NCBI GenBank assembly: GCA_015062115.1
Contig: SUVG01000001.1
Span: 124,001 to 188,000, forward strand
Direction of reading: 5' to 3'
Source: Elusimicrobium sp.
Lineage (GTDB): Bacteria; Elusimicrobiota; Elusimicrobia; Elusimicrobiales; Elusimicrobiaceae
DNA: 64,000 nucleotides
This document shows positions 2,227-23,314 of this stretch, piece by piece (the first letter of the stretch is position 1; each line of letters starts with the position of its first letter). Position numbers and translations under genes: made by a program. Under the pieces are notes generated by a model. The model was not told the DNA's origin. It was given only the letters and a program-made list of their open reading frames with translations, and ran no database searches.

Positions 2227-2739
2227 TTATTCTTCCGTTTCTTCCTCTTCGTCGAAATCTTCTTCTTCGGCACGAATATCCCGCGCGAATTGTTCCCAGG
2301 CTTTACGGGGAGCTTCGAAATTGATATTTAGTCCCGTGTTGCAATAAGGGCCGAACACTTTGTCTTCCCCGGCAAAAATATTTTGCTCAAGCGTAATTTG
2401 CAAAAAGAAATTATCGGGTGCATTGTAAGAAGAGCAACACCCCATAGCCGGCGTTCCGGGGCGCATATAGAAAGAGGCCTTCGGCTCAAGCATAATCCAG
2501 TTATTATCTTCCCGTTTGGCTAAGGTTTCGGCAATAAAGTCGGAAAGATAGATACTTTCTTCGTCCTTTACAGCCACTAATTTTTCCTGCACGGCAGAAC
2601 TGAAAACAGGTTCCCCTTCGCAATAAAGCCCAAGTTGATATTCCATAAATTCCCCTTCGCTACCGGGGTTGGACCAAATCGTCAGTGGGGTAATTTCCAA
2701 TTCCAAATGCCCTTCTTTACCAAATTTTATTTTCGCCAT
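2227..2739 (-). CDS. Conserved-looking acidic protein of unknown function
   Basis: 170 residues with no signal peptide and no membrane segment, so probably cytoplasmic. The body is a mix of short beta-rich and aromatic segments (for example EFMEYQLGLYCEGEPVF near residues 30-46) and the last 17 residues are almost all Glu/Asp. I do not recognise the family. The general layout, a beta-rich body ending in a segment with WEQFARDI, is faintly like WapI/immunity-type small proteins, but this is not enough for a name. It follows the DUF2207 gene by 10 nt, with a GGGAG ribosome site, so the two are likely co-transcribed. Confidence 0.6.
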   Translation of the reverse strand: MAKIKFGKEGHLELEITPLTIWSNPGSEGEFMEYQLGLYCEGEPVFSSAVQEKLVAVKDEESIYLSDFIAETLAKREDNNWIMLEPKASFYMRPGTPAMGCCSSYNAPDNFFLQITLEQNIFAGEDKVFGPYCNTGLNINFEAPRKAWEQFARDIRAEEEDFDEEEETEE

Positions 2740-2749
2740 AATGAACTCC

Positions 2750-3487
2750 CTATTTATAAAAATTTTTTATATATGCTTTCATTTTTTCCCAACACTGCAT
2801 AACAGAAGAAAACAACCAAGTAGATTTTATCTTTTCTGTTAAGGTCGGTTCTGTTACCGCTCCTTTATTCCAGGCAAGAGAGATAGTAAATCCCTCTCCC
2901 GGTGCCAAAGGCGTAGTAGTATAGAAAAATAAATTTTCCACACTTTGTGCGGTCCGCTCGCTTCCCTTTGCTCCGGAACGGCCCGCATAAAGAGAAACGC
3001 CGTTCTTTACCAAAGAAGCCCCTTTGGGCAGGGCCACATGCACGGCAGCTTTTTCTATTTCAAATTTCCAATCGTTCCCTGTTAAGTTCCAATAAAACTC
3101 ATCAAAATTTTTATGATAACGCAAAGCGCCAAAAACTCGATAATGGATATCGTAGGCATGAACGCCTTTTGAGATTATCTTCTCAGGGTTTCCGATGCGA
3201 AGAGTAAGCGTTTTTGAATCTTCGGTTTTAGAAAATTCTTCCTTTTGTCCGTCTCTGGATACGGAAAGGATTTCATAGCGGTCCAGCCCTTTTTTAGCAA
3301 GAGTTCGAAAAATACCCCGTTTGATCTCTTTCGAAGTGGAACAAACAAGAATTCTTTCACGAACCGTAACGGAGGAATCCGCACTTATTTGTGTTAATAC
3401 ATCAAACCGAAGGATTTTTTCCGTGTCACACGCACAACACCAAGAAAAAGAAAGTAAAAACAACAAAGAAAGAATTATTTTTTTCAT
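2750..3487 (-). CDS. Secreted DUF2207-type domain protein, without the usual membrane region
   Basis: 245 residues with a signal peptide (1-19, ending in CCAC; a lipobox is possible but weak). Residues 25-205 match the N-terminal extracytoplasmic domain of DUF2207 proteins: the SSVTVRERI strand, the KRGIFRTL motif and the later Y..YRVFGALR and YWNLTGNDWKFEIEKA segments. Family members normally continue into several transmembrane helices and a cytoplasmic tail; here the protein stops after a short helix, so it is a domain-only version. Function of the family is unknown. A TATAAT lies 6 nt before the ATG and no Shine-Dalgarno site is present, so translation is probably leaderless. Confidence 0.7.
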   Translation of the reverse strand: MKKIILSLLFLLSFSWCCACDTEKILRFDVLTQISADSSVTVRERILVCSTSKEIKRGIFRTLAKKGLDRYEILSVSRDGQKEEFSKTEDSKTLTLRIGNPEKIISKGVHAYDIHYRVFGALRYHKNFDEFYWNLTGNDWKFEIEKAAVHVALPKGASLVKNGVSLYAGRSGAKGSERTAQSVENLFFYTTTPLAPGEGFTISLAWNKGAVTEPTLTEKIKSTWLFSSVMQCWEKMKAYIKNFYK

Positions 3488-3493
3488 ATTTTC

Positions 3494-3499
3494 ATTATA
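3494..3499 (-). promoter_or_regulatory. -10 box placing the start of the DUF2207 mRNA at its ATG
   Basis: Perfect TATAAT on the minus strand with 6 nt (GAAAAT) between it and the ATG at 3487. No convincing -35. Transcription would begin at or next to the start codon. Confidence 0.6.
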
Positions 3500-3528
3500 G
3501 TAAATACACGCTTTCCTATGTATTTTGA

Positions 3529-3534
3529 TAGAAT
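3529..3534 (+). promoter_or_regulatory. Extended -10 promoter of the 3551 gene
   Basis: TGA-TAGAAT (TG at 3526-3527). The predicted start of transcription near 3541 leaves a leader of about 10 nt that holds little more than the AGAGG ribosome site at 3541-3545. This also excludes the earlier in-frame ATG at 3518, which lies upstream of the promoter. Confidence 0.5.
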
Positions 3535-3550
3535 ATACACAGAGGATTTT

Positions 3551-4099
3551 ATGCGTTACATTTTATATTTATTTACCATGGCACTTCTGTTTGTGGGCGG
3601 TATGATGGTGGGAAATATGTTTCTGCCGGAGCAGGCGGCTTCGCTTGCGGCGGCGGTGTCGGTTCCTTCTCTAACCGACCAGAACCCCATGTTGCAAACG
3701 CTCACTTCCGAAACAACCGAAAAGAATTTAACCACCCTCAGCCAAGCGCTTGAATCGTGCCCGGTAGTGGTAAATGAAGAAAAAGACCGCATCATCAACG
3801 AAATCCGCCTTCGGCTGGCCATGGAAGATTTTGAACTCAAAAAAGCCCGTTTGGAACTGGAAATTGCCAAAAACAAAGAGGCTAACCGACCTACCGCTCA
3901 GTTTACCCAAGCCAATGTGGAATACAACCAGGCCCGTGCCTATGCGGAAAAATTAGCCAACGAACTTTTCCCCGTCCAAGCACCGGAGGAACAAGTCCCC
4001 GCTGCTGAACCGACGGAAGAAAAAACCTCGACCGAAACTGCCGCACCCGAACAAAAAGCCCCTTCCACCGACATGGCGAAAGAGGCTCCCGGTAAATAA
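3551..4099 (+). CDS. Membrane-anchored coiled-coil protein of unknown function
   Basis: Start chosen at ATG 3551 because AGAGG precedes it by 5 nt; an ATG at 3518 has no ribosome site. The 182-residue product has one N-terminal hydrophobic helix (MRYILYLFTMALLFVGGMMV), a helical stretch with heptad-like E/K/L spacing over roughly residues 60-130, and a disordered tail rich in Pro, Glu and Ala. It is probably anchored in the inner membrane with the rest in the periplasm. I recognise no family. Convergent with the nucleotidyltransferase gene, within which its terminator lies. Confidence 0.6.
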   Translation: MRYILYLFTMALLFVGGMMVGNMFLPEQAASLAAAVSVPSLTDQNPMLQTLTSETTEKNLTTLSQALESCPVVVNEEKDRIINEIRLRLAMEDFELKKARLELEIAKNKEANRPTAQFTQANVEYNQARAYAEKLANELFPVQAPEEQVPAAEPTEEKTSTETAAPEQKAPSTDMAKEAPGK

Positions 4100-4105
4100 A
4101 AGTTT

Positions 4106-5038
4106 TTACTGATTAAATTTATCCAAAACCGCGTGCTTCGCGGTTTTTTGTTGCAGTTTCGTTTGCGGGCCCACGATTGTATCTTCCAATTTGCAATCTT
4201 TCAAGTCGGCCCCGTATGCCACAGATACATAAGGCCCCAACACGCAATTTTCCGCTTTTACGCCTTCTTCAATTTGGCACGGGGGGATAATAGTATTGTT
4301 TTTTTCCAATTCGGCAGGAACCCGATGATAACGGTCTAAAAGCAAACGGTTTGTCTGCAGCAACACTTCCACCGTTCCGCAATCAAACCAGTCTTTCATC
4401 ATGACCGGCACAATCTCTTCCCCGCGCGACAACAAAACAGACAAAGCGTCCGTCAATTGAATTTCATTTTTAACGGTTTTTCCGGAACGGATTACTTCTT
4501 CCAAAGCATCAAACAGTTGGGCCGAATCTAAAAACGAATACGCACCGATAATAGCCAAGTTTGATTTGGGACAAACAGGTTTCTCTTCAAACGAAATAAT
4601 CTTTCCTTCTTTTAGTTCTACAATTCCAAAACGCGAAGGGTCGGCCACTTCTTTGATGCCCACGGCGTTTTGCCCGCCAAAGACTAACGGGCGTAAATCT
4701 CCGTCCACAATCGTGTCGCCCAACAAAATAAAACAAGGGCCCGTTACATAATCTTTCGCTAAATAAATGGCATGGCCCAGGCCCTTGGGTTCGGGTTGTT
4801 CGATAAAAGTTACTTCTAAATGTGCATACCGCTCACGGACAAATTCCACAATGGCTTCTTTTTTATACCCGACGATAAAAGCCACTTTTTTAATGCCGCA
4901 CTTTTCCACTTGATCCAAAATATGGCCCAAAATCGGCTTACCCGCCACGCTAATCATGCTTTTGGGCATATTTTCGGTGTAGGGCAAAAGTCGCACGCCT
5001 TTACCGGCGGCTGGAATAATGGCCGTAAATTCTTTCAT
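4106..5038 (-). CDS. Sugar-1-phosphate nucleotidyltransferase (RmlA/GalU-like)
   Basis: 310 residues. The nucleotide-binding loop PAAGKGVRLLPYT is at 9-21, PKSM at 25-28, QPEPKGLGHA at 81-90 and the metal-binding GDT at 107-109, all in the order of glucose-1-phosphate thymidylyl/uridylyltransferases. The C-terminal 70 residues have the hexapeptide-like pattern (NCVLGPYVSVAYGADLKDCKLED) of a left-handed beta-helix. It makes an NDP-sugar from NTP and sugar-1-phosphate in the cytoplasm; the exact nucleotide and sugar cannot be read from the sequence. Third gene after ridA and malQ, so it could use glucose-1-phosphate from glucan turnover. No clear ribosome site precedes the ATG. Confidence 0.82.
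   Translation of the reverse strand: MKEFTAIIPAAGKGVRLLPYTENMPKSMISVAGKPILGHILDQVEKCGIKKVAFIVGYKKEAIVEFVRERYAHLEVTFIEQPEPKGLGHAIYLAKDYVTGPCFILLGDTIVDGDLRPLVFGGQNAVGIKEVADPSRFGIVELKEGKIISFEEKPVCPKSNLAIIGAYSFLDSAQLFDALEEVIRSGKTVKNEIQLTDALSVLLSRGEEIVPVMMKDWFDCGTVEVLLQTNRLLLDRYHRVPAELEKNNTIIPPCQIEEGVKAENCVLGPYVSVAYGADLKDCKLEDTIVGPQTKLQQKTAKHAVLDKFNQ
4125..4149 (+). terminator. Plus-strand terminator embedded in the 3' end of a minus-strand gene
   Basis: AAAACCGCG (4125-4133), loop TGCTT, CGCGGTTTT (4139-4147) and a T-run to 4149. It serves the 3551 gene while also encoding the last residues of the convergent nucleotidyltransferase. Confidence 0.75.
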
Positions 5039-5054
5039 CTTATGAAGGGCCGTT

Positions 5055-6626
5055 TTAAGCGCGGCCGGTCTCCTTTAGCAGTTCGCGGTACATAGCCAAC
5101 TGCTCGCTATATATTTCGGCGGCTTGCGCGGGGGTATATTCGCTACGATATGTCCAATTTTCTTCTCCCACGGTACCGGGTGTATTGACCCGATCCAGCG
5201 TGCCGATAATATCTTGCCACGAGAACATAGTAAGCGCGGAACTGGAATCTAATACGCGGCGTAAAATAGTGCGTTGCGTACCTAAATTAAAAGGCACATT
5301 TCCGTCTGTTTTTTGAGCGGAAATCATTTCCCAAATGTTGGCTCGTTCGTAATTATCCATGGTTTCCCACCAACCGCGCACGGTTTCGGTATCATGCGTG
5401 GAAGTAGTAGCCAAAGAGACCAGCGGATAATGGCGGGGTTCACGGTAATAACCGTTATCCTCGCGTTCCCAACGCAACACCTTATATCCGGGGATACGCA
5501 AATCTACCAACATACGGCGCACATAGTTGGGGATAACCCCCAAATCTTCCCCGACGGGAAGTTTGCCGTTTGCTTCGTCCAGCACCATGCGCAGGAATTG
5601 ATATCCGCGGTCGATTTGGGCTTGTTCACCCAACCAATCGAAGCCGCCTTGTTCGTCACCCGGCGCAAAAATATACGTGCGGAAAAAACCCACCAAATGG
5701 TCTAAACGGAACACATCATACAGTTCCGTTACCCGGCGGATTTTACGACGCCACAAATCTAAATTATGGGAAAGTTGATAGGCCCAATCATACGCAGGAA
5801 GCCCCCAGCGTTGCCCGCCTTTGGAAAACTGATCGGCAGGGGCGCCGACTTCCCACCCCAAACGATAATTTTCCCGTTCGGACCAAACTTCCGCACTATC
5901 CAAATTGGTTCCGTAGGGGATATCCCCGAAAATCAAAATGCCTTTTTCGGCGGCAAACACTTTGGCCCGGCGCAGTTGTTGATCCAACACCCATTGTACA
6001 TAGCGGAAGAAATCCACATATTCGCGGTATTGGGCTTCAAAAGCGTCCACCGCTTGTTTGTTAAAATCGCGCAAAGCCTCGGGCCATTGCGTCCAGGTTT
6101 GCCATTTATAAAATTCTTTCAGGGTACGGAAAAGCGAATAGCCTCTCAACCAGCCCGACTGCGCGGCACAGTACGCTTCAAAGGCTTGGTAACGCGCGGA
6201 ACGAACACTTTGTTCGGCCACCAAAAACCGTTGGTAACCGTACCACAGTGCTTTCATTTTGGCTTGTTTTACCGCAAAGAAAGGAGCCTTCGGCGCTTTG
6301 TGCCACTCGGCAATTTTGGTTTGCAGACTTTCCACAAACTCACGCGCGCGCGGGCTGGCCATGACATCTTCGGCCTGGGAAATATCGGCATATACCGGGT
6401 CGGTAGCAAAAGCACTTAAGGCCGAATATGGGCAAGTTTCGTTAGGGGCGGTTTCCTGCAAAGGCAAGATTTGGACGATTTTTGTTCCTTGCGAAGCAAA
6501 AAAGGAAGTCCACTCTTGCAGGGAGCCAAAATCTCCCACGCCCCAATCGTGCTCGGTTTTCATGGCGGCAAGCGGCAACAAAATGCCGTTGACGCGCCCG
6601 GAGAGAACTTGGTCTTGTATGGTCAT
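5055..6626 (-). CDS. malQ: 4-alpha-glucanotransferase (GH77, amylomaltase)
   Basis: 523 residues, typical of bacterial MalQ. The catalytic residues are in place: nucleophile D309 in FRLDHLVGF, acid/base E360 in VGEDLGVIP, and D412 in TSTHDTETVRGWW. The N-terminus has the substrate-loop signature WGVGDFGSL and QILPLQ. The enzyme transfers alpha-1,4-glucan segments between maltooligosaccharides and releases glucose in the cytoplasm, for glycogen or maltodextrin use. It lies between ridA and the nucleotidyltransferase in one minus-strand operon with gaps of 9 and 16 nt. Confidence 0.95.
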   Translation of the reverse strand: MTIQDQVLSGRVNGILLPLAAMKTEHDWGVGDFGSLQEWTSFFASQGTKIVQILPLQETAPNETCPYSALSAFATDPVYADISQAEDVMASPRAREFVESLQTKIAEWHKAPKAPFFAVKQAKMKALWYGYQRFLVAEQSVRSARYQAFEAYCAAQSGWLRGYSLFRTLKEFYKWQTWTQWPEALRDFNKQAVDAFEAQYREYVDFFRYVQWVLDQQLRRAKVFAAEKGILIFGDIPYGTNLDSAEVWSERENYRLGWEVGAPADQFSKGGQRWGLPAYDWAYQLSHNLDLWRRKIRRVTELYDVFRLDHLVGFFRTYIFAPGDEQGGFDWLGEQAQIDRGYQFLRMVLDEANGKLPVGEDLGVIPNYVRRMLVDLRIPGYKVLRWEREDNGYYREPRHYPLVSLATTSTHDTETVRGWWETMDNYERANIWEMISAQKTDGNVPFNLGTQRTILRRVLDSSSALTMFSWQDIIGTLDRVNTPGTVGEENWTYRSEYTPAQAAEIYSEQLAMYRELLKETGRA

Positions 6627-20259: not shown

Positions 20260-21552
20260 TTATTTCCCGGCCATGGTGGCCAAACCGAAGAAGGAGGAAA
20301 TGTCCTGATCGTTAAACGAGATATTGGCTTTGACGGCCACCTCGTTGGTTTCCAACGCATCGCGCACCCACGCACCGGCGGAGAAGTAGCGATTAAAGCG
20401 GAAATCTACCCCGTAATTGACATTAGGTTTATTAAACAAGCGCCCGTTAATCGTGCGGTCGCGTCCCCAATCCGAAAATTCCCCGGTAAATGTAAAGCGT
20501 TGCAAAAATTCTTTATCGTAGAAAGGTTTAAGTTCCAAGGCCACCCCGCCCGCACCGCGGATCAAACCGGCCGACAAAGTAGCCCACTTGTTGTAGAGGC
20601 CGAAGCGGACATCAAATTGATTTTTTTCCAAGTAATCGTGAGGATCCAGGGTGTCGTCTTCGTTTCCGATGTTAGCAATACCGGCCCGATAGAAAGTATA
20701 GCCGCTGGAAGGATAAATTTCCAAAGCCAAATCACTGGTAGAAAGAGAGGCATCGGGCAAATAGAAGAAATCATAATCCCAATACACGCGAAAACGGCTC
20801 ATTTTACCCACAAAAGTTTTTACTTCAGCCATGGTATCTTTTAAGTTGGTAACACTTTCTTTTACTTCTTCCTTCATTTCCGGGTCTTTAATTAAACTGC
20901 CGATGACCCCTTCGCCTTGTTCCAGGCTGGTCATCAAAGAATCAGCCTTAGCCATTAAATCGGTCAAGCGTTCGCTGGCGACATCTAAATTCTGCACGGA
21001 ACGGGTTAAATAGGGGCGCATCGTAGCCACCATTTGGTTTAGGTTGGCGGAAAGTTGGCGTACTTCGGCCATGGTTTGATTCAGTTTATCACCGAAGGCT
21101 CCTTGGTTGTTTACGCTGTCTACAAACTCTTTGATGCTGGCCATGGTTTGTGTAATCATCACATCCATGGGCAAATCGTCCACTCCGTTAAGATAATCGC
21201 CGGGTTTGTATACGGAGGCCAAAGCATCGCCTTGAACGATTTTTAAGTATTTAGAACCGATAATACCCGTCATGACAACGGAAAATTTAGCCCCGGAATA
21301 GATTTCTACCCCTTCGTGGATTTCTGCCACCACAACGACTTCGCCGTCTTGAATTTTAATTTGTTTCACTTTCCCCACTTCCACCCCGGAAAGTTTAACG
21401 GGGGCACGCACCGGCAAACCGGAAACATCGTGAAATTTAATGTTCAAATCGTAAGTGCGCGTAACGGAAAGCCCCCCTAAAAAATAGAGAGAAAAACCGA
21501 ATACGACAAGTCCCAATATGGTAAAAATACCCAATTTTGTTTCTGCTTTCAT
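20260..21552 (-). CDS. mlaD: MlaD-type MCE protein with a C-terminal beta-rich domain
   Basis: 430 residues, much longer than proteobacterial MlaD (about 180). One N-terminal transmembrane helix (7-28), one MCE domain (about 35-120, PVKLSGVEVGKVKQI and GSKYLKI), a helical stretch (about 130-240) and then about 190 residues of alternating hydrophobic, aromatic-rich strands (YWDYDFFYLP, DVRFGLYNKWATLSAGLI, FRFNRYFSAGAWV) that look like part of an outer-membrane beta-barrel. It would bind phospholipid between the MlaE/F transporter and the outer membrane. The mlaF gene lies 218 nt upstream, separated by the repeat region at 21618-21766. Confidence 0.85.
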   Translation of the reverse strand: MKAETKLGIFTILGLVVFGFSLYFLGGLSVTRTYDLNIKFHDVSGLPVRAPVKLSGVEVGKVKQIKIQDGEVVVVAEIHEGVEIYSGAKFSVVMTGIIGSKYLKIVQGDALASVYKPGDYLNGVDDLPMDVMITQTMASIKEFVDSVNNQGAFGDKLNQTMAEVRQLSANLNQMVATMRPYLTRSVQNLDVASERLTDLMAKADSLMTSLEQGEGVIGSLIKDPEMKEEVKESVTNLKDTMAEVKTFVGKMSRFRVYWDYDFFYLPDASLSTSDLALEIYPSSGYTFYRAGIANIGNEDDTLDPHDYLEKNQFDVRFGLYNKWATLSAGLIRGAGGVALELKPFYDKEFLQRFTFTGEFSDWGRDRTINGRLFNKPNVNYGVDFRFNRYFSAGAWVRDALETNEVAVKANISFNDQDISSFFGLATMAGK

Positions 21553-21617
21553 AATTTATCCTTGTTTATAAAATAAAAATAATACTACCCGTTATTTTAA
21601 CTATTCAAAATGTAAAT

Positions 21618-21648
21618 AAAAAACAATAAAATAAGCCAAAATCTGCCG
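21618..21648. repeat. 31-bp direct repeat, copy 1
   Basis: Matches 21736-21766 with one mismatch (A for G at the ninth base). It lies in the mlaF-mlaD gap; read on the minus strand it ends in a T-rich tract. Confidence 0.8.
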
Positions 21649-21735
21649 GCAATTTCCGCTCTCTATTTTCAAAGAGTTTGTGCTTAGTTTACCGTTTCTT
21701 TGAAACGAAGCGTATTTCACAATACGCGAGTGAAC

Positions 21736-21766
21736 AAAAAACAGTAAAATAAGCCAAAATCTGCCG
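21736..21766. repeat. 31-bp direct repeat, copy 2
   Basis: Second copy, ending 5 nt before the mlaF stop codon. Between the copies are short hairpins: CGTTTC/GAAACG (21693-21707) and GCGTATT/AATACGC (21710-21727). Confidence 0.8.
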
Positions 21767-21770
21767 AAAA

Positions 21771-22535
21771 TTACTCCTTCATCAATTTCATTTGTATAGG
21801 CCCTTGACTGCTGCCGTTTACAAATTGTTTAACGAAGGGATTATCGGTTTTGCGGAACTCCTCGGGAGTGCCGTACATCAAAATTTCACCTTCGTATAAG
21901 AAGGCAATATAGTCCGCTATTTTGAAAGCGGAGTGCATATCGTGCGTAATAACCACCGAGGTAACGCCCAATTTTGCTTTTAAGTCTAAAATCAAATCGC
22001 TGATAATGTCGGACATGATGGGGTCTAAGCCGGTGGTCGGTTCATCGTACAAAATAACTTTGGGGTTAACCGCCAACACCCGCGCCAGCGACACGCGTTT
22101 TTTCATACCGCCGGAAAGTTCGCTGGGGTTGAGTTTGGCTACCTCTTCCTTTAAGCCTACCAAAGCCAGTTTTTCTTTGATGATTTTGGGATATTTACTT
22201 TCCGGAGTGTCGGTTAAGTATTTAAGGCCAAAGGCCACATTTTCCCCTACGGTCATGGAGTCAAAAAGGGCCCCCTCCTGAAAAAGATACCCGAAATGCC
22301 GGCGAATAGCGGCCAGTTTTACTTCGCTGTGAATTTTAGTAATGTCCTTTCCGCCCAATATAATTTTGCCGCCGGTGGGGTCTTCCAAGCGAATCAAACA
22401 TTTAATTAAGGTGCTTTTCCCGGAGCCGGAACCACCCAAAATACAGGTGGTTTTTCCCTCTTCTATTTTGAGGTTAACCCCTTTAAGCACTTGCTTGGAA
22501 CCGAAATTCTTTTGCAGGTTAATAATCTCAATCAT
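21771..22535 (-). CDS. mlaF: Phospholipid-transport ABC ATPase MlaF
   Basis: 254 residues. Walker A GGSGSGKST near residue 34, Q-loop LFQEGALFDS, signature LSGGMKKRVSLAR, Walker B VILYDEP and the H-loop ITHDMHS are all present. The LFQ.GALF..M pattern is diagnostic for the Mla/Ttg2A group. It powers MlaE for lipid movement between inner and outer membrane. The mlaE gene precedes it with a 2-nt gap. Confidence 0.95.
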   Translation of the reverse strand: MIEIINLQKNFGSKQVLKGVNLKIEEGKTTCILGGSGSGKSTLIKCLIRLEDPTGGKIILGGKDITKIHSEVKLAAIRRHFGYLFQEGALFDSMTVGENVAFGLKYLTDTPESKYPKIIKEKLALVGLKEEVAKLNPSELSGGMKKRVSLARVLAVNPKVILYDEPTTGLDPIMSDIISDLILDLKAKLGVTSVVITHDMHSAFKIADYIAFLYEGEILMYGTPEEFRKTDNPFVKQFVNGSSQGPIQMKLMKE

Positions 22536-22537
22536 GG

Positions 22538-23314
22538 TTAAATTCCAAAAGCCGTTAAAATAGCGGTTAAAAAGTAGTCCAACACCAAAATCAGTACAAT
22601 CGTGGTAACCACTGCCCCGGTGGTAGATTTCCCCACCCCTTCGGCACCGCCACGGGTGCTGATGCCTTTATAACAGCAAACCGTCGCCACCATAAAGGCA
22701 AAAATAAAAGACTTAATAAACCCGTGCATAAAATCGTCCACATCCATAAAGGAAGTGATATCCGTCATGTAAACTTCTCCGGGGATACCCAAAGCATAAA
22801 TGGCTACTAGGTATCCGCCCAAGACTCCGAAAAGATTGGAGAAAAGCGTTAAAATGGGCATGGTGAGAAGGAACCCGAACATACGGGGAATTACCAAATA
22901 ACGAATCGGGTTTGTTCCCAAAGTGTAGAGGGCATCAATCTGTTCCGTTACCGCCATGGTGCCGATTTGCGCCGTAACGGCGGCACCCGCACGGCCGGAA
23001 ACCACCACACTGGTCAACACGGGGCCCAGTTCGCGAATAAGAGAGAAGGTAACAATCGTTCCTACAAAAATCGGTTCTCCGAAGATGTTGCCAATCGTAT
23101 TACCGGCTTGTAAGGCAAGCACCATGCCGGTAAATAAACTGGTCAGTGCGGTAACGCCTAAAGACTCTACCCCAATCGTTACGCTTTGATCCACCGCTTG
23201 GTGAAATTCAAAACGGGAGTGGGTGACCCAAAATAAACTGGAACGAACCATTTGGGCAGCGCCGCCCACTTGGTCGAACAGGTTCATCATGTATTTTCCG
23301 ATAGCCGTAAACAT
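22538..23314 (-). CDS. mlaE: Phospholipid-transport permease MlaE
   Basis: 258 residues with about six hydrophobic segments. The MlaE signature RELGPVLTSVVVSGRAGAAVTAQIGTM (given here as RELGPVLTS...AQIGTM) and VTEQIDALYTLGTNPIRYL are present. It forms the inner-membrane channel of the Mla complex. Its start overlaps the alr stop by one base. Confidence 0.95.
   Translation of the reverse strand: MFTAIGKYMMNLFDQVGGAAQMVRSSLFWVTHSRFEFHQAVDQSVTIGVESLGVTALTSLFTGMVLALQAGNTIGNIFGEPIFVGTIVTFSLIRELGPVLTSVVVSGRAGAAVTAQIGTMAVTEQIDALYTLGTNPIRYLVIPRMFGFLLTMPILTLFSNLFGVLGGYLVAIYALGIPGEVYMTDITSFMDVDDFMHGFIKSFIFAFMVATVCCYKGISTRGGAEGVGKSTTGAVVTTIVLILVLDYFLTAILTAFGI

Follow-up and report, generated by a model that had tools for sequence, protein, structure and literature searches.

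The window, a 64,000-nucleotide stretch of an Elusimicrobium genome, comes from an Elusimicrobiota gut bacterium whose assembly comprises 1.44 Mb in 8 contigs and is 95.6% complete. On its minus strand lies the operon mlaE-mlaF-mlaD, with alr upstream, a radA-like gene downstream, and no other gene interposed among the three. The lipid ABC transporter permease encoded by mlaE (22538..23314) matches PF02405 (E = 4e-75), scores above the TIGR00056 cut-off, and is present in a single genome copy. Adjoining it is mlaF (21771..22535), whose product is an ABC ATPase (PF00005, E = 2.1e-35); the MlaF model PRK11831 matches with E = 1.5e-56, a score below its cut-off. The operon closes with a long form of mlaD (20260..21552), which reads in the same direction and encodes 430 amino acids. 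Searches of the whole genome returned one MlaE match and one MCE-domain match, the latter being this mlaD. Its open reading frame begins with an ATG, and the start (M-K-P-E-T-K-L-G-I-F) is conserved in relatives, which in named records belong to Elusimicrobiota (Elusimicrobiales, Elusimicrobiaceae, uncultured Elusimicrobium, and Candidatus Avelusimicrobium).

The gap between mlaF and mlaD is 218 bp here and shorter in most close relatives. Within it we observed a 43-nt direct repeat, present as two copies (21612-21654 and 21730-21772) that are 118 bp apart and 88% identical. Assignment to a genome-wide repeated element was ruled out, as the sequence is not repeated elsewhere in the genome; its 19-nt core occurs only at these two places.

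Partner proteins were sought across the same assembly. Neither MlaA (PF04333) nor MlaC (PF05494) was detectable in this 95.6% complete genome, and the same profiles detect both proteins in the E. coli control. A single BamA/Omp85 protein is present (E = 4.8e-62), along with weak TamB and LptD_N-type matches; the cell therefore has outer-membrane assembly genes.

Domain organization of the long MlaD

The sequence-only reading had described this protein as an MlaD with a large, aromatic, β-rich C-terminal extension, and the domain analysis bears that description out. PF02470 matches residues 32-108 with 57.9 bits against a curated cut-off of 25.1 (E = 1.2e-15). To model the protein, we supplied AlphaFold2 with a family alignment of 38 Elusimicrobiota MlaD proteins that cover the full length at 24-83% identity to the query. 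A predicted N-terminal transmembrane helix (residues 3-24; 21481..21546, minus strand) is hydrophobic and conserved in this alignment and would serve as an inner-membrane anchor. It precedes the MCE domain (residues 33-122; 21187..21456, minus strand), whose predicted strands occupy the same residues and whose Foldseek matches include the E. coli MlaD structures 5uw8 and 6xbd.

Next comes a helical tract of ~120 residues (residues 129-251; 20800..21168, minus strand), modeled at low confidence, with much of residues 128-252 below a pLDDT of 50. The mean pLDDT of the whole-protein model is only 68.8 because this tract is poorly placed. In relatives with 60% identity or more, every length change falls within the helical tract, each amounting to 7 residues or to 4+3, and the MCE domain and barrel show none. 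Steps of this size would fit a heptad-based coiled helical tube.

Beyond the helices, AlphaFold2 predicts a ten-stranded outer-membrane β-barrel (residues 254-414; 20311..20793, minus strand). The span of 245-430 first proposed for the extension contains the barrel, whose start moves from residue 245 to about residue 254. In a Foldseek search with the whole-protein model, the MCE part alone was matched; the barrel was therefore folded and searched separately. Folding of residues 245-430 gave the same ten strands as the whole-protein model, with a mean pLDDT of 87.8 and a pTM of 0.79; the prediction is a membrane barrel rather than a soluble domain. Outer-membrane barrels account for nearly all matches of this model in the PDB; among them are domains of invasin and intimin, OprF, OmpX, and the designed ten-stranded TMB10 (probability 1.00). 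Scores were modest, with a best E-value of 1.1e-3 and TM-scores of at most ~0.5-0.6, and the soluble chains 2ich and 2zf4 appear lower in the list. Many outer-membrane barrel annotations were also retrieved by a search of viral models. In a phmmer search, the barrel hit 7jwb, the VH chain of a human antibody (E about 5e-8); we rejected this hit, as its value sums three identical weak matches (each with an i-E of 0.33) to a triplicated chain.

The composition and patterning of the extension were consistent with this fold. Aromatic residues make up a fraction of 0.19 of the extension, 0.03 of the helical tract, and 0.09 of the N-terminal part. With strand limits taken from the AlphaFold2 model, we computed the family-averaged alternation of hydrophobicity between inward- and outward-facing positions over the ten strands; the sum was 21.6, compared with 8.8 +/- 2.0 after within-strand permutation, and none of 5000 permutations reached the observed value. 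Nine of the ten strands contribute to the signal, the exception being strand 286-293. The extension remains alignable in relatives at 20-34% identity and retains ten invariant residues. Because fold, alternation, and conservation in relatives agree, the extension is not a chance reading.

In the AlphaFold2 models, the loops between strands 3-4 and 7-8 are 18 and 16 residues long, and the turns on the opposite side measure 3, 4, 4, and 11 residues. If the chain enters the barrel from the periplasmic side, the two longest loops would lie outside the cell, and the mostly short turns and the C-terminus would be periplasmic, as is usual for outer-membrane proteins. A conserved helix (residues 418-429; 20266..20301, minus strand), supported by both the model and the family alignment, follows the last strand. 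The motif DxD(I/L)AxLFGL (residues 415-423, at about 20284-20310) joins strand and helix and is among the best-conserved parts of the extension phylum-wide.

Variation at the alr-radA slot across Elusimicrobiota

We surveyed 199 Elusimicrobiota genomes and found MlaD in 180 and MlaE in 181, with MlaC in 4 and MlaA in 2. Restricting the survey to the 143 genomes with completeness of at least 90% and contamination of at most 5% gave 141 with MlaD, 141 with MlaE, 4 with MlaC, and 2 with MlaA. Relatives examined across the phylum retain the order mlaE-mlaF-mlaD, and in most loci with enough flanking sequence radA adjoins mlaD. The barrel-ended MlaD architecture is standard across most of Elusimicrobiota.

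Two departures from this arrangement emerged, both single-locus observations on metagenome assemblies. In families f11-f13, the operon is kept with a barrel-less MlaD of about 272-302 residues that ends after the helices and, in the loci read (L052, L065, L072, and L090 at 4937-5842), lies directly before radA. Some genomes of these families have a second MCE match. The other departure is found in genome G087, a 95% complete member of the same class (family f8) in which neither MlaD nor MlaE was matched. Its alr-radA slot (L089, G087:C96, 8457-12439, minus strand) contains mlaA, mlaC, and a gene for an MMPL-type RND transporter instead of mlaE-mlaF-mlaD. The flanks are those seen elsewhere: alr and a gene for a dnaB-type replicative helicase lie to one side, and radA, a PIN/TRAM gene, and an ispDF-like gene lie to the other. 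In G087, the RND transporter resembles HpnN and MlaC resembles HpnM, with scores below the cut-offs of those models. A literature search found no description of an mlaA-mlaC-RND operon, which is weak evidence given the many journals missing from it. In another metagenome assembly, G188, a single locus (L091, G188:C23, about 2605-5572) has an MlaA gene adjoining an RND transporter gene whose product is 37% identical to that of G087; a long MlaD is also present in that genome.

Tentatively, and with more doubt than confidence, these loci might be read as one slot holding three solutions to inter-membrane lipid transport, namely MlaEF with a barrel-MlaD, MlaEF with a barrel-less MlaD (f11-f13), and MlaA-MlaC with an HpnN-like MMPL transporter of the RND type (G087). 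Should the G087 set perform the same job, an RND pump could replace the MCE/ABC engine, and barrel-MlaD and MlaA-MlaC would be functionally interchangeable.

A candidate transenvelope route for phospholipids

The closest described counterpart is the long MlaD that Grasekamp et al. (2023, PMC10665443) reported from Veillonella parvula. In this protein of 419 residues, a transmembrane helix and an MCE domain are followed by about 150 residues of helix and then by a C-terminal barrel of ten strands. Its gene belongs to an mlaEFD operon, and the genome has neither MlaA nor MlaC. Likened by described architecture, the 430-residue Elusimicrobium protein shares the N-terminal transmembrane helix, the single MCE domain, the long helical tract, the ten-stranded C-terminal barrel, and the MlaEFD operon, as well as the lack of MlaA and MlaC and of an MlaB in the operon. 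The two differ in phylum and in gene context, with the V. parvula operon preceding tolC and tamB and the present one lying between alr and radA. The conserved helix after the barrel is a feature of the protein studied here, and helical extensions are reported for some long MlaD members (PMC10665443). Fractionation in V. parvula assigned the isolated barrel to the outer membrane and the TMD-MCE part to the inner one, and mla mutants show outer-membrane defects (PMC10665443); the Elusimicrobium barrel is a predicted one.

Other MCE systems resemble it in part. E. coli MlaD, part of the MlaFEDB-MlaC-MlaA system, shares the MCE fold and the MlaE and MlaF partners, but it is a barrel-less protein of 183 residues that needs MlaC and MlaA, both absent here; the Elusimicrobium protein scores 68.6 bits against the cut-off of 135 for the equivalog model TIGR04430 (OM_asym_MlaD). 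The best solved-structure match is the mycobacterial Mce1 complex (8fed), which likewise has an MCE domain followed by long helices that form a tube. Mce1, however, is a heterohexamer in which each chain contributes one strand to one shared barrel (PMC10665443), and it operates in another type of envelope. PqiB and LetB of E. coli also form MCE tubes that span the periplasm; each of their chains carries several MCE domains and lacks a barrel, in contrast to the one MCE domain in the whole genome studied here.

From these comparisons and the structural models, we consider it highly probable that 20260..21552 encodes a transenvelope MlaD, a single protein that probably joins the inner and outer membranes for phospholipid transport. 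A direct link from MlaEF to the outer membrane had been suggested in the sequence-only reading, and the predicted barrel, the absence of MlaA and MlaC, and the match to the V. parvula MlaD architecture all favor it. By homology, six MlaD copies would sit on an inner-membrane MlaE2F2 ABC transporter, where their MCE domains would form a ring that binds lipid. Across the periplasm, the helical tracts would come together as a hydrophobic tube with a length of about 18 nm, reckoning 0.15 nm for each of about 123 residues. At each C-terminus, a barrel of ten strands would be inserted into the outer membrane by the single BamA/Omp85. Phospholipid would then be moved between the membranes, driven by the ATPase MlaF, most likely in the retrograde direction as argued for V. 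parvula, with need for neither an MlaC shuttle nor MlaA. The further suggestion that the long MlaD replaces MlaA/MlaC holds as far as their absence is concerned. As a history it runs backward, because long MlaD, widespread in diderm Terrabacteria and some Gracilicutes, is argued to be ancestral and MlaABC to have come later (PMC10665443); "never having had them" is the better wording.

The nature of the C-terminal domain and its contribution to transport bear on this model. A soluble, β-rich periplasmic domain that binds, for example, lipid or peptidoglycan would account for the lack of a recognised Pfam domain, the Foldseek E-values of only ~1e-3, and the soluble chains lower in that list. 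We regard this as very improbable given the confident ten-strand model, matches dominated by outer-membrane barrels, the strong outward hydrophobic alternation with aromatic residues, and the outer-membrane localization of the barrel in the V. parvula MlaD (PMC10665443). Within the transenvelope reading, the barrel may only anchor, holding the helical tube at the inner leaflet of the outer membrane as a spacer so that lipids exit at the tube tip and not via the barrel. This variant, which does not exclude the model above, has in our estimation about an even chance of being correct. A phospholipid does not fit through a lone ten-stranded barrel (PMC10665443), and families f11-f13 manage with a barrel-less MlaD at the same locus; extraction from the outer leaflet would require another component. 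Against a purely passive role, the ten residues invariant phylum-wide are more than an anchor might need, and barrels could merge or cooperate. No description exists of six barrels arranged in a ring (PMC10665443).

The direction of transport by Mla is disputed in the literature (PMC10665443), which leaves room for an anterograde system that exports lipids instead of retrieving them. We think this unlikely, since tamB suppressors in V. parvula support opposite roles for a retrograde Mla and TamB (PMC10665443), and a weak TamB match occurs in the present genome too.

The transenvelope MlaD idea was already published for Veillonella in 2023 (PMC10665443), and the Elusimicrobium protein is a further example. 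The string "Elusimicrobi-" is absent from the main text of that article; its databank spans all phyla, so the supplements may already list this one. Relative to that main text, the in-place exchange in G087 and the barrel-less MlaD of f11-f13 are additional observations. Together, these data carry the published transenvelope MlaD into Elusimicrobiota, a phylum with hardly any other Mla system: of its good-quality genomes, about 99% encode an MCE protein and about 1% encode MlaA. The natural comparisons that the phylum offers, a barrel-less MlaD and one mlaA-mlaC-RND exchange in place, bear on what the barrel is for.
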